Below, piece after piece: positions 790 through 23,275 of a stretch of 25,538 nucleotides of DNA; position 1 is the first letter of the stretch; the number at the start of each line of letters is the position of its first letter. The notes below the pieces were generated by a model. It saw only the letters and a program-made list of their open reading frames with translations. It searched no databases and had not been told where the DNA came from. The translations under genes and the position numbers were made by a program. Origin of the DNA: a virus; the IMG/VR virus record IMGVR_UViG_3300034375_004603, positions 1-25,538 of that record; one strand, 5' to 3'.

Positions 790-1341
790 ATGAAAGTTTT
801 AGTAGCTTGCGAGTATTCGGGAACGGTGCGGGATGCGTTCATTGCGGCAGGGCACGAAGCCCTTTCGTGTGACCTTCTGCCAACAGACGTTCCAGGCCCC
901 CACTACCAAGGCGACGTGCGCGACGTGCTGCACGATGGCTGGGACTTGATGATTGCGCACCCACCATGCACACACTTGGCCGTCAGCGGTGCGCGGTGGT
1001 TCAAGGACAAGCAGGCCGAACAGGCCGAAGCGCTGGATTTTGTGCGCTTGCTGCTCGACGCACCTATTGAGCGCATCGCGCTAGAGAACCCAATCAGCGT
1101 AATTTCAAGTCGCATCCGAAAGCCCGACCAGATCATCCAGCCTTGGCAGTTTGGGCACGGCGAAACGAAGGCTACCTGTCTGTGGCTAAAGGGTCTGCCG
1201 AAGCTGGAGCCTACCAACATCGTAGACGGGCGAGAGGCGCGCGTGCACAAGCTGCCGCCGAGCGCTGACCGCTGGAAGATTCGCTCCACAACTTACAAAG
1301 GAATCGCCGAAGCAATGGCGCAACAATGGGGAAAAATGTAA
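790..1341 (+). CDS. minimal cytosine-C5 DNA methyltransferase-like protein (183 aa)
   Basis: The fold resembles the catalytic half of cytosine-C5 methyltransferases. An N-terminal SAM-binding strand and loop is visible (VACEYSGTVRDAF, residues 5-17, with CDL at 27-29). A motif IV-like PPC has its cysteine at residue 60, and a motif VI-like ENP lies at 99-101. The usual PCQ reads PCT, and ENV reads ENP. At 183 residues it is about half the usual length and has no obvious target-recognition domain. It may therefore need a partner, modify a nucleotide or another base context, or act without methylation. AGGAG (776-780) precedes ATG 790. Family assignment is fairly sure; activity is not. Confidence 0.7.
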   Translation: MKVLVACEYSGTVRDAFIAAGHEALSCDLLPTDVPGPHYQGDVRDVLHDGWDLMIAHPPCTHLAVSGARWFKDKQAEQAEALDFVRLLLDAPIERIALENPISVISSRIRKPDQIIQPWQFGHGETKATCLWLKGLPKLEPTNIVDGREARVHKLPPSADRWKIRSTTYKGIAEAMAQQWGKM

Positions 1342-1544
1342 TGGAAATCAATGCTTTAACTGTATACCTTGCCCTCGGGATAGTGTGCGCGCTCGCTATG
1401 TGGGCCGAAGACTTCGAGAACAGGCGCGACACTTTCAATGTGTGGGAATATGTGTTAATCATAACACTTGGGCCAGCGCTCGCAGTTATAAACTTTATAA
1501 TGCTGGTCCATAAAGGCATCAAACAACGCAAGCAGGGAAGGTAG
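1341..1544 (+). CDS. small two-helix membrane protein (67 aa)
   Basis: The start is ATG 1341, which overlaps the methyltransferase stop (TAATG); an in-frame ATG 15 bases upstream is inside that gene. Two hydrophobic segments are visible, about residues 7-24 and 41-61, joined by a charged loop (EDFENRRDTFN). A basic tail (HKGIKQRKQGR) suggests both ends face the cytoplasm. I recognise no family. It could be an early host-envelope modifier or a superinfection-exclusion factor, but that is conjecture from size and position. Confidence 0.6.
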   Translation: MEINALTVYLALGIVCALAMWAEDFENRRDTFNVWEYVLIITLGPALAVINFIMLVHKGIKQRKQGR

Positions 1545-8101: not shown

Positions 8102-9605
8102 TGGCATCATCGGCCACAACCTCCTGTCCTTCGACCTTCCTGTGCTGCACCGTGTGTGGGGCTGGGAATGGACCGGAACGGTCTATGACACCATGGTCAT
8201 GGGCCGTCTCCTTAACCCTCCTGCTGAAGGCGGGCATTCTCTAAAGGCTTGGGCGCTGCGGGCCGGCAAAGAACTCAAGGACGAGTTCGATGTCGCCGAC
8301 TTCGACAAGGGCCTGACGGACGAAATGATCCGCTACTGCCTGCAAGACTGCCGTGCTAACTGGGACGTGTACGAACACATCGTCGCAGAGCTAGACCGCC
8401 AGGGCTTCAGTCAGCAGTGCCGTGACCTTGAGCATGACGTTGCTAAAGCTACGGCACTGCAGATCGCGAACGGCTTCGCCTTCGATTTCCCCACTGCTTG
8501 CAATCTTTATTGCGAACACGAGCAGCGCATGCGGGAAATTGAAGCGGAGCTGCAGGCCATCTTCCCACCCATCGTGGAGGAGCGGTGGTCTGAGAAGACC
8601 GGCAAGCGCCTTAAGGATAGCGTCACTGTGTTCAACGTAGGCTCCCGCCCGCAGGTGGCGAAGCGCTTGGCGCAGAAGGGCGCCGTGTGGAAAGACACCA
8701 CGCCTACCGGACAGCCCAAGGTTGACGAGTCTACGCTTAAGCAGAACGAACACATTCCCGAAGCCGCTCTGGTCCTTGAGTACCTTACGCTTCAGAAGCG
8801 CTACGGCATGCTTAAGAACTGGCTTGATGCGGTGCAAGACGATGGTCGTATCCATGGCCGTGTCAACACGTGCGGTGCCGTGACGGGCCGCATGACGCAC
8901 AGCTCACCCAACATGGCACAGATTCCTAGCGACTCTCTGTACCGCCAATGCTTCGTTGTGCCTGAGGGCAGCAAGCTTGTCGGCATTGACGCTAGTGGCC
9001 TTGAGCTGCGCATGCTGGCCCACTACATGGACGACCCAGAGTACACGGACCTGATCCTTAACGGCGACATCCACACCTACAATCAGCAAGCTGCCGGCTT
9101 GGACACTAGACCGCAGGCGAAGACGTTCATCTACGCCTTCCTCTACGGTGCCGGTGACGCCAAGATTGGCAGCATTGTAGGCGGGTCGTCACGCAAGGGC
9201 GCACAGCTCAAGCAGCGCTTCCTAGACAGCCTCCCTGCCCTCCTGAAGCTGATTAACAAGGTGGCTAGGCATGGGTTGCAGGGCAGCTTACCGGGGCTTG
9301 ACGGGCGCCGTGTGCTGATACGTAGCGAACACGCAGCACTCAACACTTTGCTGCAATCCGCTGGTGCTATCGTAATGAAGCAAGCGCTGGTGCTAGCGAC
9401 CAACAAACTGGCACGCTACGGCTACCCATACAAGCTGGTGGCTCAAGTGCATGACGAGTTTCAGGTAGAGGTGCCTGAAGAGTATGCGCAGCAGGTAGGC
9501 GCAGTGTTCCGTAACGCGATAAGGGAGGCAGGACGTACGCTAGAGTTGCGCTGTCCACTGGACGGTGAGTACAAAATTGGAAACAACTGGAGCGAGACAC
9601 ACTAA
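7962..9605 (+). CDS. family A DNA polymerase, T7-like, with 3'-5' exonuclease (547 aa)
   Basis: Replicative polymerase. Exonuclease motifs: D7-I-E9, N53/D58 in GHNLLSFD, and Y125/D129 in YCLQD. Polymerase motif A is DASGLELR with D343. Motif B (O-helix) has R383, K387 and Y391 with the same spacing as R518, K522 and Y526 of T7 gp5. Motif C is VHDE with D498. At 547 residues it is clearly shorter than T7 gp5 (704), so the thioredoxin-binding insertion is probably absent. AGGAG (7949-7953) precedes ATG 7962. Tyrosine at the O-helix position matches the usual state of lytic T7-like phages. Confidence 0.97.
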   Translation: MKLAVLDIETNLSHDTIWMAGVYLPAQNASVHCATSSELSATLKDVDGIIGHNLLSFDLPVLHRVWGWEWTGTVYDTMVMGRLLNPPAEGGHSLKAWALRAGKELKDEFDVADFDKGLTDEMIRYCLQDCRANWDVYEHIVAELDRQGFSQQCRDLEHDVAKATALQIANGFAFDFPTACNLYCEHEQRMREIEAELQAIFPPIVEERWSEKTGKRLKDSVTVFNVGSRPQVAKRLAQKGAVWKDTTPTGQPKVDESTLKQNEHIPEAALVLEYLTLQKRYGMLKNWLDAVQDDGRIHGRVNTCGAVTGRMTHSSPNMAQIPSDSLYRQCFVVPEGSKLVGIDASGLELRMLAHYMDDPEYTDLILNGDIHTYNQQAAGLDTRPQAKTFIYAFLYGAGDAKIGSIVGGSSRKGAQLKQRFLDSLPALLKLINKVARHGLQGSLPGLDGRRVLIRSEHAALNTLLQSAGAIVMKQALVLATNKLARYGYPYKLVAQVHDEFQVEVPEEYAQQVGAVFRNAIREAGRTLELRCPLDGEYKIGNNWSETH

Positions 9606-10129
9606 TGAAACCTAAATTTAAAAAACTGCCGTCTAACAAAAGACTTAATGAGCTGCTGCGGTACAATCCTCAAACCGGCGAGCTGCGGTGGAAAACTAAT
9701 CGAAGAGGGACAGCTAAGGCCGGACAACTTGCTGGTGTTATAGACAAACCTAATGGATACGTTAAAGTATGTATTGATAATGTGCGATATAAAGCGCACC
9801 GTATTTGTTACAAGATGGCTACTGGGTGGGACGTCGGAATATTTGAAATTGACCACATTAATGGAGTAAGGTCGGACAATAGGCTTTCAAACTTACGCAT
9901 GGTAGACGCTTTAACAAATCGAAAGAACACAAAACGTAGATCAGACAATACCTCAGGATATACTGGAGTCTACTTTATCAAACGTAGCAAAAAATGGCGG
10001 GCACAACTGAAAGTGAATGGAAAAAAAGTTCACCTTGGTTGCTTTGAAAAACTAGAAGATGCAGTTGCGGTACGTGCTGCAGCAGATGTTAAGCATGGCT
10101 TTCATGTTAACCACGGGAGGGCTGCATAA
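9605..10129 (+). CDS. HNH endonuclease with AP2 DNA-binding domain (174 aa)
   Basis: A free-standing homing-type nuclease. The HNH core spans about residues 60-110 (AHRICYKMATG, EIDHINGVRSDNRLSNLR, RKN). An AP2-like three-strand region follows at about 118-150 (GYTGVYF, KWRAQLKVNGKKVHLGCF). GC is about 42% by my hand count over 9661-10080, far below the flanking polymerase gene, which marks recent insertion. ATG 9605 overlaps the polymerase stop (TAATG), so it landed without harming that gene. The likely role is its own spread between phage genomes by cutting alleles that lack it. Confidence 0.9.
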   Translation: MKPKFKKLPSNKRLNELLRYNPQTGELRWKTNRRGTAKAGQLAGVIDKPNGYVKVCIDNVRYKAHRICYKMATGWDVGIFEIDHINGVRSDNRLSNLRMVDALTNRKNTKRRSDNTSGYTGVYFIKRSKKWRAQLKVNGKKVHLGCFEKLEDAVAVRAAADVKHGFHVNHGRAA

Positions 10130-10132
10130 CGC

Positions 10133-10161
10133 TTGACAAACAAAGCAAAGTATGAGAAGAT
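10133..10161 (+). promoter_or_regulatory. sigma70-like promoter P3 before the SSB-like gene
   Basis: TTGACA (10133-10138), a 17-nt spacer and GAAGAT (10156-10161). The block TATGAGAAGAT resembles the TATGGTAAGAT of P1 and P2 with two changes. It fills the gap after the HNH gene, so the apparent open frame from TTG 10133 is promoter and leader, and the protein starts at 10208. Confidence 0.65.
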
Positions 10162-10207
10162 AATACCAGTGGTCAATACCGGCCACGCAACTAACAAGGA
10201 ACTAAAC

Positions 10208-11385: not shown

Positions 11386-11495
11386 AGCATGTCCTGACCT
11401 ACCCTCAGCAGCTTAAACCACTACTGCGTATGATCAAGATGTGGCTTAAGGACCGCCACCGAATTAGAATCATACTGGAAACACTGGATGACTAA
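11334..11495 (+). CDS. small hypothetical protein (53 aa)
   Basis: GGGAGG (11323-11328) stands five bases before ATG 11334, which decides the start although it lies inside the exonuclease gene. The N-terminal third (DSQAGGGAVGVPSGRVEHV) is flexible. The rest is a basic amphipathic helix (QQLKPLLRMIKMWLKDRHRIRIILETL). It could contact DNA or a replication protein, but no family is recognised. The end overlaps the HNH gene start. Confidence 0.6.
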   Translation: MDSQAGGGAVGVPSGRVEHVLTYPQQLKPLLRMIKMWLKDRHRIRIILETLDD

Positions 11496-11847
11496 GCGAG
11501 TAGCACGGACGCGTAATGATGGCAAGTGGACGGAGGCACGCTACTTTGGCTTTATCCGTAGCGCCCTCCGCTCTGCTTTCCAACGCTGGGGCCCGAAGCA
11601 CAGTGCCAAGCAAGCCGCTAAGGTAGCGTACAACACCTACGAATGCGCCCACTGCGGTGGCTGGTTTGGGACAAGGCAGGTGGAAGTGGACCATATTGTA
11701 CAGTGCGGGTCGTTACGGAACTACGACGACCTCCCCGGTTTCGTAGAGCGTATGTTTTGCGAAGCTGATGGATTCCAAGTGCTGTGTAAAGAGTGCCACC
11801 AAGCTAAAACTAACGAAGAACGTGACGCAAAGAAGAGGAGTAAATAG
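11488..11847 (+). CDS. HNH nuclease with zinc-binding cysteines (119 aa)
   Basis: ATG 11488 overlaps the preceding gene. The core has CAHC (C53, C56), DHI (D68, H69) and CKECH (C100, C103, H104), the zinc-supported beta-beta-alpha metal nuclease layout. Codon use matches its neighbours and it lies between exonuclease and metallophosphoesterase. A resident recombination or junction-resolving function, filling the slot of T7 endonuclease I or T4 endonuclease VII, is therefore more likely than a homing element. That role is inference; the nuclease fold is clear. Confidence 0.8.
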   Translation: MTKRVARTRNDGKWTEARYFGFIRSALRSAFQRWGPKHSAKQAAKVAYNTYECAHCGGWFGTRQVEVDHIVQCGSLRNYDDLPGFVERMFCEADGFQVLCKECHQAKTNEERDAKKRSK

Positions 11848-13754: not shown

Positions 13755-16502
13755 TTATTCCTCGTCTAGCTTATCAGAAACGGCTTTATATATTGGACCA
13801 ATTAAAGGCATCCTTTCAAGCGTTTCGTTAGGCACAACTTCCCCTTTTGTGAACAAATTAGATACGTCTTTCATCAAGCCTTCAACGACCGGAACAACAG
13901 GCAGAAAGTTAGAAGTTATTTGTTCGTACGGATTTTGCGCAAACAAATGAGCAGCGTATTGGTTGCCGCCAAACGCACCAATAGTAGGAATAGACATCAT
14001 TTGGTAGAATGCCAGCATAGGAACATTCCCGTAATCAGGCGACTCTCCTTTTAATATTTGACGCGACTCGTTTACCACCCCGTAGCCGCCGCCAGAAATC
14101 AAGAAGTACGCAAGCATATCTTTAAGAGCTTCTTTGCGCTTAGCTTTATCGCGGGTTTTTAGACCAGCGCCAACCCGCTTACGAATAAGCTGTAGCTGCG
14201 TCATGGCAAACCCCTTGAGCATGTAAAGTATGCGCACTTGCGGCAGGCTTAGCTGCTTTAAAGAACTACTTGCCGAGCTTATCGGCTGCAGGTCAGACAA
14301 GTTAATAAGGGCCAACTGCTTAACAAGCTCGTTACTGGTGTCTTTATTTTTAAGAGCCTCTTCTAGCTCTGCAATTTCAGCACGATTAAAAGTATATCGC
14401 CACTTAGCGCGCCACTTGCTTGCATTAGCAGCTAACTGGTTAAACTCCTTGCCCAGCGCTGCGGACATAATTTTACCTTTAGCCCAGCCGTCCATGCCTT
14501 TAAAGCCTGAATATTTCATTGAAAAATCAACAAGCTTTTGAGAGCGGTCTACGGCCCAGTCTGCTAGCGTGCTGTTTACAAAAGACCCATCAGCCCTCTT
14601 AGCCCTGTTCATAATTTCGCTATGAATCTGCTGGGCTACCCCTACATCTTCAACGGAAAGTTTAAACCCGTTTTTATTTGCAAGGGCTTCAAAAGTTTCT
14701 CGTCTGCCGTTTGCCCAAGCGCTGTTAAATACGTCATGAAACTGCAAGGCTGCGCCGTATGGGTTTCCAATAGCAGACGCGTAGCCAACATTACGCAGCG
14801 CTTGCAACTCTTTAGCCATACTGCGTTGGCTTCCCCAAACTACTTGGTTGTAAATTTCAACAGCGTTGCCTACTTCTTCGTCGCCAAGCCCAGAACTTCT
14901 TAATACGCTTTCAAGACGTTTCCCAAAGTAGCTGCCTTTTGCTATTTCGGCCAGCTCTTCTGCGGTCGTGGCAGCCTTAATTCCAAGAACTTTATTAACC
15001 TCGTTAAGCTGAGCGTGCGAGCGCATCCAGTAGTGATGCGAGTCTACGGGGTTCATAACAGGAGCTTCTTCGCCCACTTTAGACAAACCCGTACCGTCAG
15101 CATTTAATCGTGCAACTTTAAGTTTTTGCTTAGCGCTGACATCAGCCGTAGACAAACGAGAAGCTTGTTCTGCGGCTTTACGCTCAGCTTCAAGCGTTTC
15201 TAAAGTTTCTGTTGCTAAATCTGATTTTTTGTCTGTTCTATCAGCAGCAATAGACATATAGCCACGATTGCGTTTAAAGCTTTGTGTGCCTTTGGCAATA
15301 TCATTAAGATAACTTTCTTGTTCTTTAATAAACCGTCTAAAGTTATTAAAACCTTGCTTATCATTAAGCTCTCTACGCACAGTGCGTAACGCTACAGCGC
15401 GCTGCTTTGCGGATAGCTCTGGATTTGCATAATCTGCAATTGCCGCTTTAAGCAACGGAGCGTTGGGCGCTGCTTCAATAGAATCGCGAAGCTCAAACAT
15501 TTTGTTTTTTTCAAATAATTGGTCAATCTTGTTAATTACACGCTGTCCGTTAATGGCTCCCCTATTAAGCCTAGCTGAAAACGGCTTGCTTACTTTTTTC
15601 TCTGCGTAGTCTTTAACAGGCTGGAACCATTTGTCAAACCCGTCTTGCACTTCCTCAATCTTAGGGCGCAACGCTGTCATCATGTCGCCAGTAGTATCGC
15701 TAAGAGCTGACACGGCGTCCCGTCCTGCCTTAGCTAATGAAGGCGACACGGATTCCGCAGCCTTAAACGCAAGCTCTCCAATATCTTCCGCAACATCTTT
15801 TGCTTTAATGGCTGTAGACTGAGCCGCTGTAGACACACGATTCATAGCAGCGTCGGCTAGCTCTCCAAGCGTCTTGCTTTCTGGGGCGGTGCCCCGCACC
15901 AAAGAGCCACCAACGGCGCCCGCTGCGGCTCCTAAGCCAGCAATAAGCACGTCTTGCATACCGAGAGAGTTAATACGCTCACCGATGTCGCCTTGCTTTT
16001 CACCAAGCGCATACGTGCTGCCCTCTACGGCACCGACCGCAGCGCTTGCCGCAGCATTAGCAGCACGTGTGGTGCCCGCTTTACCGGCTAGTTTAGCTGC
16101 TCCTTTTAACGCGGCAGCACCAGTAAGCAAGCCGGTACCAACACCACCGGCAACTTCAGCCGCAAGCGCAATGCCTGGACTTTGCTCTTGGAAACGCTGC
16201 TCTACGTCTTGCTGCCGAGCAAGCATCTTGTCAAAGGAAGCACTAAAATCCTCTTCACCCATAACAGATGCTTCTTTGCCAAGAATACGGGCACGCGTGG
16301 AGTCGATTGCAGCAAGGGCAGCAGAGGCCGCTTCATCGCCAAAACCAAACAGCAGGCCATCAAGAATCTTAGTGCCAAAGCCTTGAATATCTTCAGCTAC
16401 TGTGGTCTGGTCTGCTAAGTTTAAAGCAGCAAGCGCAGTCTCTTCGTCCGGCGCATCAACTTCATACTCTTCGCCGTCAACAGTAATTTCATAGATAGGC
16501 AT
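13755..16502 (-). CDS. large internal virion / ejection-type protein (915 aa)
   Basis: The last gene of the structural arm. The N-terminus (MPIYEITVDGEEYEVDAPDEETALAAL) is a small strand-strand-helix unit seen at the front of other large phage virion proteins. Gly/Ala-rich hydrophobic stretches at about 110-200 could insert in membrane. Long helical charged regions follow. Near the end, LPQVRILYMLKGFAMTQLQLIRKRV plus a hydrophobic AYFLISGGGYGVV segment resembles a motif I know from ejected podovirus proteins. It probably helps DNA cross the cell envelope. Base composition falls to about a third GC in the middle (15181-15360). The start overlaps the upstream stop. Confidence 0.7.
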   Translation of the reverse strand: MPIYEITVDGEEYEVDAPDEETALAALNLADQTTVAEDIQGFGTKILDGLLFGFGDEAASAALAAIDSTRARILGKEASVMGEEDFSASFDKMLARQQDVEQRFQEQSPGIALAAEVAGGVGTGLLTGAAALKGAAKLAGKAGTTRAANAAASAAVGAVEGSTYALGEKQGDIGERINSLGMQDVLIAGLGAAAGAVGGSLVRGTAPESKTLGELADAAMNRVSTAAQSTAIKAKDVAEDIGELAFKAAESVSPSLAKAGRDAVSALSDTTGDMMTALRPKIEEVQDGFDKWFQPVKDYAEKKVSKPFSARLNRGAINGQRVINKIDQLFEKNKMFELRDSIEAAPNAPLLKAAIADYANPELSAKQRAVALRTVRRELNDKQGFNNFRRFIKEQESYLNDIAKGTQSFKRNRGYMSIAADRTDKKSDLATETLETLEAERKAAEQASRLSTADVSAKQKLKVARLNADGTGLSKVGEEAPVMNPVDSHHYWMRSHAQLNEVNKVLGIKAATTAEELAEIAKGSYFGKRLESVLRSSGLGDEEVGNAVEIYNQVVWGSQRSMAKELQALRNVGYASAIGNPYGAALQFHDVFNSAWANGRRETFEALANKNGFKLSVEDVGVAQQIHSEIMNRAKRADGSFVNSTLADWAVDRSQKLVDFSMKYSGFKGMDGWAKGKIMSAALGKEFNQLAANASKWRAKWRYTFNRAEIAELEEALKNKDTSNELVKQLALINLSDLQPISSASSSLKQLSLPQVRILYMLKGFAMTQLQLIRKRVGAGLKTRDKAKRKEALKDMLAYFLISGGGYGVVNESRQILKGESPDYGNVPMLAFYQMMSIPTIGAFGGNQYAAHLFAQNPYEQITSNFLPVVPVVEGLMKDVSNLFTKGEVVPNETLERMPLIGPIYKAVSDKLDEE

Positions 16503-20826: not shown

Positions 20827-21473
20827 TACACAGTCATCCAGACGTTATCGTAATCGTTAAGGGAAGCATCCCAAGCAATAGCGTCGCTAAGATACACATT
20901 AGCTAGCGAGAACAGCTCTGCTGCCGTTTGACCACCCACTTCGCCACGCTCACGTGCTGCCATAGCTAGCGCCGTGTACACAACGGGCTTAGAGGGCACA
21001 AGCAATACATCGTTTTTGTCGCTGAGTTCTGCTTGACGCTTGAAGCCGTATACGGTGTAGTTGTATACGCCATCAGGTTTCGGGAATAGCTGTATTTGGA
21101 TGTCGTAATTGCTGTCTACACCGTTGACTGCATAGTACTTGGGTTTGTTGTTTGCTGGCGATGCGGCTTGTCGCTTGCGAATAGCGCTTAGCTGTTCTTG
21201 CTTAAGCTCCACTCCGTCATCCTTAAGGATAGCCTCTATCTTACCATAATTTCCTGCATTTGTCAAGCTATATAGGTTGTCATCTGCAGCAGTAGTAATG
21301 GACCATTCGTGCCGCAGCGCATTCCAAGTGTGTGCATCTTCGACAAGCTGCTTAGCATCGTTTACTAACGCAGTAACCATTTCAGCTACGGGGTCATCAA
21401 GACCCGTTACGTCCGTTACGGTGTCTTCACGTAACCGCTGCAGCACTTGATTCACAGCTTCCAAATACGTCAT
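20826..21473 (-). CDS. tail tubular protein A-like (215 aa)
   Basis: The start MTYLEAVNQVLQRLREDTVTDV is the hallmark of T7 gp11-like gatekeeper proteins, followed by the LVNDAKQLVEDAHTWNALRHEW helix and a small beta part. Length matches the family (T7 gp11, 196 aa). It joins the portal to the tail nozzle. ATG overlaps the preceding stop (ATGA). A strong minus-strand promoter lies within the coding sequence over residues about 70-79. Confidence 0.88.
   Translation of the reverse strand: MTYLEAVNQVLQRLREDTVTDVTGLDDPVAEMVTALVNDAKQLVEDAHTWNALRHEWSITTAADDNLYSLTNAGNYGKIEAILKDDGVELKQEQLSAIRKRQAASPANNKPKYYAVNGVDSNYDIQIQLFPKPDGVYNYTVYGFKRQAELSDKNDVLLVPSKPVVYTALAMAARERGEVGGQTAAELFSLANVYLSDAIAWDASLNDYDNVWMTV
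21238..21266 (-). promoter_or_regulatory. sigma70-like promoter P4 inside the tail tubular A gene
   Basis: On the minus strand, TTGACA (21261-21266), a 17-nt spacer ending TATGG, and TAAGAT (21238-21243). It repeats the TATGGTAAGAT block of P1 and P2 exactly. Transcription would start near 21231, so the first complete gene served is tail tubular B, followed by the three large virion genes. The bases also encode LTNAGNYGKI. Confidence 0.75.
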
Positions 21474-23275
21474 GATAACATTCCTCGTGCTTGCGCAATG
21501 TAATCAACATAGGGCGCAATAGCTTTCTTTTGGTATGGCGTTAAGGTTGTGTACTTAAACAACTCGGACCATTGCGGCTTAAACGCAGCGCCTGCTGCAG
21601 CGGCCATCATGCCTGCGCCCAGGCCCGTGCCGTCACCGCTGCCGTCGCCTTCTCCGTCACCCTGTCCGTCACCTTCTCCGTTACCTTCGCCGCTTCCTTC
21701 TCCACCGCCAACACCAGAGCCAACTCCAGTGCCATCGCCAGTGCCCTCGCCGCCTACGTCAACGCTTTGGTCGCCGCCGGTAGCTCCGCTTTCAACACCT
21801 TCAGTGGCCGTATCGACAGGCTCTACGGTGGTCGTATCGACAGGCTCTACGGTGGTCGTATCGACAGGCTCTACGGTGGTCGTATCGACAGGCTCAATGT
21901 CTGCCGTAGTATCGGCGTCAATGGTAGAATCTAATAAGCCACCCGCAGCACCAATCAAGTCACCGGTAACGTCAACAACTTCGTCTTCTTGCGGCGTGTA
22001 ACCCGGAACAACATCGCCCGGCTCAAAGATAACATTGCCTTGTGGTTCAAAGCCGTCAAAAACAGGACGCCAATTTTCTTCAATCTCGTCCCAAACGTAA
22101 CCAATAACGGCTGGCTCTACCGGTGTAGTGTCAACTTCACCATAAAGGTCTTCTGGTAAGTTGTCGTTCCATGTTCCGCCAGTGTATCGCTCCCATTCTC
22201 TAATAAGCGCGTCACGTAAGTCCGGGTCGGTTTCTTGAAAAATTGCTTCATACATTTGACGACCAATAACGTCGTCATAGCCTACAGTTTCTTCAATACC
22301 TGAAGCAGGCGCTGAGCCTTCCTGTGTGCCCTCCTGAGCGCCGCTAGTGTCACCCTGTACTTCCCCATCAGTCTGGGCCGCAGCGCCTCCTGTAGGGGCC
22401 GTAGCGCCGCCTGCAGAGCTACCACCGCCGCCTCCTCCCTCTTCTTCTTTTGGATCAACAACAGGCTCTACGTACGTAGGCGGCTGGTCAAGGATAACCG
22501 GAACGCCACCAACAGTAGCACTACGAGGTCCGTATATTTCGGGCAAGTCTAGCTCGTCGTCTTGCCGCTCTGCTTCCATAACAGCAGGGCCTGCAGCGCT
22601 TAGTGCAGACAATGCGCTAACGCCTGTGTCTGCTGCCATTTGCGTAGCGCGGCTTGCTGCAGGCAGCACTTGGCCTATATCAACGCCTGCTAAACCGCCG
22701 CTTACGGCACCAGACAACGCGCCTTGAAGCGGGTCTTGTCCCGTTGCAGCAGCCATGCCGCCACCCAAAATAGCCCCAGTACCTGCTGTAGCTGCTGTCG
22801 CTGCGGCTCCGGTTAAGGTAGGAAACAACGAACTAACAATACCACCAGCCGCAACAGGAACAGCAAGGGACATTAAGCCACCGGCAAGCGCCGCTAGCTC
22901 AGGCCGTACGGTGTTACGATATGCAACATTCTCTGGCAAGTTACGATATGCCGCAAGCTCTTCCGTAGCTTGTTGGTACTCTTGAGGCGTTAAGCTTCCA
23001 GCTCCTACGTCAACACTAACGCCTTGCGCGTCCCGTGCTGCAAGAATCTGACGGTCCATGTCAGGGTCGCCAGTAAGCTCTTGTGCAGCAATGCCGGTAG
23101 CGTTTGCAGGAACTGCAGTAGTAGGCTGAGGAGCAGGCTGTGATGCAGCCGTTACAGCTTGCGTAAGAGTCTGAGCCGGCTGACCAGTTTGTGCCGCAAC
23201 AGCAGCAGCAATTTGATCAGGCGTAAGCGTTACGCCACCAAAGCTTAAAGGAATGCCAAAGCTAAAGCCACCCAT
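21470..23275 (-). CDS. disordered, repeat-containing virion-type protein (601 aa)
   Basis: Three parts are visible. Residues 1-220 are Ala/Gly-rich with hydrophobic segments (LAALAGGLMSLAVPVAAGGIVSSL, GTGAILGGGMAAATG). A middle part has a GGGGGGSS linker and folded-looking acidic regions (MYEAIFQETDPDLRDALIREWERYTGG). A late acidic region carries VEPVDTTT repeats and a run of GEG/GDG units. A short helical end follows (LFKYTTLTPYQKKAIAPYVDYIAQARGML). No enzyme motif is seen. Placement between lysis genes and tail tubular A suggests a virion component. Its start overlaps the preceding stop (TAATG). Confidence 0.6.
   Translation of the reverse strand: MGGFSFGIPLSFGGVTLTPDQIAAAVAAQTGQPAQTLTQAVTAASQPAPQPTTAVPANATGIAAQELTGDPDMDRQILAARDAQGVSVDVGAGSLTPQEYQQATEELAAYRNLPENVAYRNTVRPELAALAGGLMSLAVPVAAGGIVSSLFPTLTGAAATAATAGTGAILGGGMAAATGQDPLQGALSGAVSGGLAGVDIGQVLPAASRATQMAADTGVSALSALSAAGPAVMEAERQDDELDLPEIYGPRSATVGGVPVILDQPPTYVEPVVDPKEEEGGGGGGSSAGGATAPTGGAAAQTDGEVQGDTSGAQEGTQEGSAPASGIEETVGYDDVIGRQMYEAIFQETDPDLRDALIREWERYTGGTWNDNLPEDLYGEVDTTPVEPAVIGYVWDEIEENWRPVFDGFEPQGNVIFEPGDVVPGYTPQEDEVVDVTGDLIGAAGGLLDSTIDADTTADIEPVDTTTVEPVDTTTVEPVDTTTVEPVDTATEGVESGATGGDQSVDVGGEGTGDGTGVGSGVGGGEGSGEGNGEGDGQGDGEGDGSGDGTGLGAGMMAAAAGAAFKPQWSELFKYTTLTPYQKKAIAPYVDYIAQARGMLS
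21630..21712. repeat. short GEG/GDG-coding repeats
   Basis: Twelve-base-like units with variants of CCGTCACCTTCT encode a minus-strand run of glycine alternating with Glu, Asp, Ser or Asn. The copies are imperfect, so the array is older than the neighbouring 24-bp array. It makes a flexible, strongly acidic segment. Confidence 0.75.
21809..21895. repeat. 24-bp tandem repeat, 3.6 copies
   Basis: Perfect units at 21809-21832, 21833-21856 and 21857-21880, and a partial fourth at 21881-21895. The unit is a multiple of three and encodes VEPVDTTT on the minus strand, so copy changes keep the frame. Identical copies indicate recent expansion. Confidence 0.95.

Follow-up and report, generated by a model that had tools for sequence, protein, structure and literature searches.

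Gene organization of the locus

The DNA analysed here, an uncultivated virus record of 25,538 bases (IMGVR_UViG_3300034375_004603), is referred to as the window. Its early region consists of short genes followed by those for DNA primase/helicase, ribonucleotide reductase and DNA polymerase, the polymerase having its best relatives, among the matches listed, in Pelagibacter and Roseobacter phages at ~ 42–46% identity. The locus of interest comprises three adjacent plus-strand genes: U (619–777), which encodes a small hydrophobic protein of 52 aa; the gene for a 183-aa protein (790–1341), hereafter the enzyme; and D (1341–1544), which encodes a protein of 67 aa. The spacing between U and the enzyme gene is 12 nt, and the enzyme stop codon TAA shares bases with the ATG start of D (TAATG at 1339–1343), in agreement with the original prediction that the flanking genes are coupled, or nearly so, to the enzyme gene in translation. 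Both flanking products had also been described as membrane hairpins. A hydropathy scan found two hydrophobic segments in D, for which this description is fair, and one in U, for which it is uncertain. The interval first proposed for the locus, 790–1544, covers D but leaves U outside.

A member of PHROG 757

The enzyme matches PHROG 757, a family annotated as "DNA methyltransferase", at E = 7.9e-75, with residues 1–182 of its 183 aligned to positions 15–220 of the 247-position profile; it is a further member of this already catalogued phage family. It is under purifying selection, with a median dN/dS of 0.10 over 20 pairs of relatives (those with usable dS out of the 60 most similar pairs at 80–98% identity). 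Since the family match and the low dN/dS coincide, a chance occurrence of the 183-aa open reading frame is excluded.

Relatives are widespread. A translated search found them in 902 of 50,697 phage records, with coverage of at least 80% of the query in 356. For example, Prochlorococcus phage P-SSP6 has a relative of 80% identity, and others occur in Rhizobium, Flavobacterium, Vibrio and Arthrobacter phages, in Drexlerviridae, and in RB49-like and HK578-like coliphages. A relative is also contained in a 5.6-kb ssDNA microvirus record that is marked UNVERIFIED. Confirmation of candidate stretches gave 589 relatives in viral contigs (the best 80 of them 72–88% identical) and 168 more in a collection of bacterial and archaeal genomes, where the best 80 span many phyla. 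Large as the family is by the phage and genome-collection counts, the window member yet has no match in Pfam at E up to 10, PF00145 included, and none in NCBIfam at E up to 1; PF00145 was reached by just one of 82 relatives (E = 4.9e-4). Searches of PDB sequences with the single protein or with the A2 profile returned chance matches only. A reading of the enzyme as one of the PADLOC defence families was likewise unsupported (best E 0.041).

The named members P-SSP6 PRUG_00008, RB49p189 and HK578 gp32 have in common with the window enzyme a signature of Cys, Glu, Lys, Thr and Arg residues, and no family-defining difference separates them from it. The window copy stands at the short end of the family, some longer members carrying an insert before motif VIII; a motif-I-like LFDGSG is present in distant members. 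In the literature searched we found no tested activity for PHROG 757 or for any phage-encoded C5 enzyme lacking a recognition domain, and a result for this family would bear on hundreds of annotations. The accessible part of a paper on microvirus diversity mentions accessory methyltransferases just in general terms. The m5C methyltransferase tested in a Sinorhizobium prophage study belongs, according to the accessible part of that report, to another family of relatively large proteins (~ 700 aa).

Predicted fold and the missing recognition domain

The AlphaFold2 model of the enzyme, built from an alignment of 82 sequences, has a mean pLDDT of 93.0 and a pTM of 0.89. When it was compared with the PDB by Foldseek, 49 of the 50 matches listed were C5-cytosine DNA methyltransferases (best E 1.5e-6), headed by DNMT3A, DNMT3B, DNMT1 and M.HhaI. 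A second structural aligner placed 177 of the 183 residues on DNMT3A (chain 634–908, Z 13.6, 3.2 Å) and 178 on M.HhaI (chain 12–322, Z 13.5). The model covers the core from the start of the SAM-binding part through the C-terminal helix, but the matched DNMT3A and M.HhaI domains are ~ 95–135 residues longer, and it can therefore be deduced that the target-recognition domain is missing. Only ~ 26 residues lie between the last strand (129–134) and the last two helices (161–180). Together with the PHROG 757 match and the profile alignment of motifs described below, the fold bears out the original description of a half-size protein resembling cytosine C5 methyltransferases, and the structural alignments confirm the absence of a target-recognition domain that had been proposed with it.

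In the BFVD collection, the enzyme matches 48 viral models at E up to 0.001, with 58% identity for the best of them. Two entries, A0A6J5SE15_1 (1397 aa, Helicase/UvrB) and A0A6J5NPY6_2 (1126 aa), have the enzyme fold inside larger phage proteins; these are possibly natural fusions, which could hint at a partner.

Active-site residues

The predicted reading frame contains, as originally described, the motifs PPC (residues 58–60) and ENP (residues 99–101). For comparison, we assembled a reference set of 18 canonical C5 enzymes through PF00145 from bacterial genomes, 11 of the 12 genomes having one. HHalign aligned the family profile to this set with a probability of 83 and E = 9e-6. Cys60 (codon 967–969, plus strand, as are all codons given here), the predicted nucleophile of motif IV, falls on the cysteine of PCQ, and Glu99 (1084–1086), the predicted base-contacting acid of motif VI, falls on the glutamate of ENV; each is invariant in 82 of 82 relatives. 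Asp42, kept in 77 of the 82, aligns to the motif III aspartate, and Phe121-Gly122 to the FG that precedes motif VIII. The enzyme thereby has the fold, the PPC cysteine, the EN glutamate and the motif III aspartate in common with the canonical C5 DNA methyltransferases (PF00145; for example, M.HhaI and DNMT3A), but it differs from them in having no target-recognition domain. Asp28, kept in 81 of 82 family members, was considered as the ribose-binding acid; its position in the order of motifs would suit this role, but in the profile alignment it did not come to lie at that place.

Another difference concerns motif VIII, whose RxR is kept in all 18 canonical enzymes. At this place the window enzyme appears to have KxT, so that Lys127 and Thr129 (Lys127-Ala128-Thr129, codons 1168–1176) would replace the canonical arginines of QxRxR. 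Beyond residue 122, neither full-length nor global profile alignments are meaningful, and the equivalence therefore rests on a gapless extension from the confidently aligned block. Lys127 is kept in 81 of 82 family members and Thr129 in all 82. The change is notable because the active-site Glu and Arg of C5 enzymes face N4 and O2 of the cytosine, according to the accessible part of the paper on CmoX (PMC12783734). It is this O2-contacting arginine that Thr129 appears to replace, which weighs somewhat against the enzyme being a typical cytosine methyltransferase.

An altered motif VIII is what might be expected if the protein were an inactive or structural relative in which the fold is retained and serves to block enzymes of the host, for instance through binding of SAM or of the host proteins that modify DNA. 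We consider this improbable, since all 82 divergent members keep Cys60, Glu99, Thr129, Trp132 and Arg165 and dN/dS is low, a combination more likely for a catalyst.

CmoX itself, the DNA cytosine C5-carboxymethyltransferase of phage S-B43 (PDB 8YF3; PMC12783734), provides a further comparison. It has the C5-methyltransferase fold in common with the enzyme (Z 11.7), but its chain in the structure has 333 residues as against 183, and its motif reads SPPC rather than HPPC. The same paper, in the part accessible, gives the place of M.HhaI Asn304 as Arg350 in CmoX, which binds the carboxy group of the cofactor (PMC12783734). The invariant Arg165 of the enzyme (codon 1282–1284) would sit at about this cofactor-selecting place: a count backwards from where the ranges aligned with DNMT3A, M.HhaI and CmoX end brings it within ~ 1 residue of M.HhaI Asn304. 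DNMT3A, which also has an arginine there, uses SAM, and so Arg165 alone does not indicate a carboxymethyl cofactor. Among 32 contigs with the PHROG 757 family, none had a CmoA above the TIGR00740 cut-off, with a single match below it at 16.9 bits. The contigs thus leave an association of the family with CmoA unsupported, although a host CmoA could substitute.

The enzyme gene is an insert between two paired genes

A scan for D returned eight loci, all of which also contain U. In seven of these, U and D are 10 bp apart with no methyltransferase gene between them, an arrangement first seen in L302, which was fetched through its reductase gene and lies on the same contig as L387. The remaining locus, L382, is the only one of the eight to contain the enzyme, and over 5,541 bases it is 99.8% identical to the window. 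Both have a gene-precise insert (778–1340 of the window, plus strand) where the seven related loci have their 10 bp. The enzyme gene is a separate cargo inserted into a pre-existing U–D pair, U being the partner of D and not of the enzyme. Because the insertion is precise to the gene and the two membrane-protein genes were already paired, we conclude that the enzyme acts alone.

In a tree of the D region (nine rows, five of them distinct), four contigs without the enzyme form the fully supported sister group of the window lineage, and the enzyme is likewise absent from the more distant rows. The enzyme gene looks to have been gained recently in the window lineage, a single gain there being the simplest reading of this tree, the root of which is not fixed. 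The window and its sister contigs form a clean natural pair with and without the enzyme.

These loci bear directly on one proposal of the original prediction, namely that the three genes form an unrecognised anti-host unit of membrane proteins plus methyltransferase. The tight spacing and the overlapping stop and start codons in the window would suit such a unit, but the U–D pair occurs without the enzyme in seven of eight loci, and the proposal is thereby refuted; we would assign it next to no probability. Nor do the membrane genes accompany the enzyme in its close viral relatives, and a lack of co-occurrence is what the original prediction had named as evidence against the unit. Among the 80 close viral relatives (the best 80 of 589), the best match to U or D was at E 0.2, the window's own copy excepted, and these loci thus have no recognisable copy of either flanking protein.

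A crude hydropathy scan of neighbours, which took the longest open reading frames and a 19-residue window, agrees with this. Of 81 loci, one (L060) was dropped for having no open reading frame. With the window left out, 79 relatives were scored, none of which had proteins with hydrophobic segments on both sides of the enzyme; such a segment was found in 2 of 42 upstream and 3 of 61 downstream reading frames. Including the window brings the upstream count to 3 of 43, its own D being missed by the filter.

More generally, relatives of the enzyme have no fixed partner, and their setting is one of genes for replicating and modifying DNA. An ORF heuristic with a 400-bp distance limit, applied to up to 77 diverse loci, yielded 150 neighbour proteins, which matched 213 PHROG families (one protein may count under several); none of these families covers more than four proteins. 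The commonest matches were primase/helicase, other DNA methyltransferases, endonucleases and Holliday-junction resolvases, along with some ParB-like proteins.

Elsewhere in the early region, positions 344–600 of the window, which contain most of the reading frame before U (PHROG 15017), do not align to contigs L383–L386, where other sequence is present. The stretch is another variable early cassette.

Virion DNA modification and the role of the enzyme

Modification of DNA or nucleotides for the evasion of restriction, the other role named in the original prediction, is plausible. Our preferred reading, which we hold with modest confidence, is that the enzyme is a minimal PHROG 757 C5-cytosine methyltransferase that acts alone as an orphan enzyme and modifies phage DNA as a protection against restriction. 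It would consist of the DNMT3/M.HhaI fold reduced to its core for SAM binding and catalysis, the target-recognition domain having been deleted. By the chemistry expected of this fold, Cys60 would attack C6 of the cytosine while Glu99 holds the base, the methyl group would pass from SAM to C5, and Cys60 would then be released. For want of a recognition domain, the sequence specificity would be expected to be short or relaxed. The protein would be made early in infection.

Phage TB34 provides the one published measurement bearing on the family that our searches found. It has an intact PHROG 757 member of the RB49 type, with 97.3% DNA identity to the RB49 gene, which is annotated as a hypothetical C-5 cytosine DNA methylase and keeps the Cys, Glu, Lys and Thr of the family. 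In a 2026 study, as given in its accessible part, hydrolysis followed by HPLC/MS revealed no detectable modified nucleosides in TB34 virion DNA, and for BrxU this DNA was used as the undigested control (PMC13390438). Since TB34 is unmodified despite its intact member, bulk cytosine modification is not a general product of PHROG 757, and an annotation as "DNA methyltransferase" is, as TB34 shows, no predictor of modification in virion DNA. The result weakens the case for DNA methylation by the window enzyme but does not exclude it, because sparse sites could be missed and the RB49 member is just ~ 30% identical to the window enzyme. For Drexlerviridae, the BASEL study found no simple link between methyltransferase genes and resistance to restriction.

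Phages TB34 and SAP are reported to be 99.96% identical, and the accessible part of the same study describes T-even-type cytosine modifications in SAP DNA and none in TB34, with no responsible gene found (PMC13390438). In our searches both phages (L410 and L411) carry the PHROG 757 gene, with the same identity to RB49, and its presence therefore does not explain the difference between them.

The TB34 observation is also what a C5-methyltransferase fold re-aimed away from dsDNA might produce, acting instead on host tRNA or rRNA, free deoxynucleotides or ssDNA. The lack of a target-recognition domain, Lys127 and Thr129 where all 18 canonical enzymes have RxR, and the relative in the microvirus record would fit such a substrate. 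However, an enzyme acting on free nucleotides should also have led to modified bases in the DNA of TB34, the structures that match best are those of DNA enzymes, and genes for DNA methyltransferases and helicases as well as ParB-like genes are found among the neighbours. We regard a re-aimed substrate as possible but rather unlikely. Virion DNA without detectable modification in a phage with a distant member would be expected of an inactive relative as well.

A more specific and equally tentative proposal is that PHROG 757 has dropped the recognition domain and rebuilt the contact with cytosine O2, through KxT in place of RxR together with the invariant Arg near the cofactor-selecting place of CmoX. 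Such enzymes might modify RNA, ssDNA or sparse sites rather than bulk dsDNA, or might transfer a group other than methyl. If so, they would constitute an enzyme class spread across dsDNA phages, possibly ssDNA phages, and the prophages of many bacterial phyla.

Other features of the window

Several features elsewhere in the window were noted. An HNH endonuclease gene (PHROG 99, E = 8e-63) lies directly after the DNA polymerase gene at 9605–10129. L302 has ~ 60 bp in place of window positions 9605–10189, and the region therefore looks like a second gene-sized insert. A different HNH endonuclease gene (PHROG 1985) is found at 11488–11847. The gap after the gene for a 94-aa protein contains an imperfect direct repeat, CTATGCGCAG(A/T)AAAGTG, at 1855–1905; it is also present in L302, near 1972–2023, and is possibly regulatory. 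On the minus strand, a 915-aa protein (13755–16502) had no PHROG match at E up to 0.001. A 601-aa protein, also on the minus strand (21470–23275), has a stretch rich in Gly, Asp and Glu, and its gene contains a 24-bp tandem repeat at 21804–21895 (3.8 copies, 98% matches) that encodes VEPVDTTT units.
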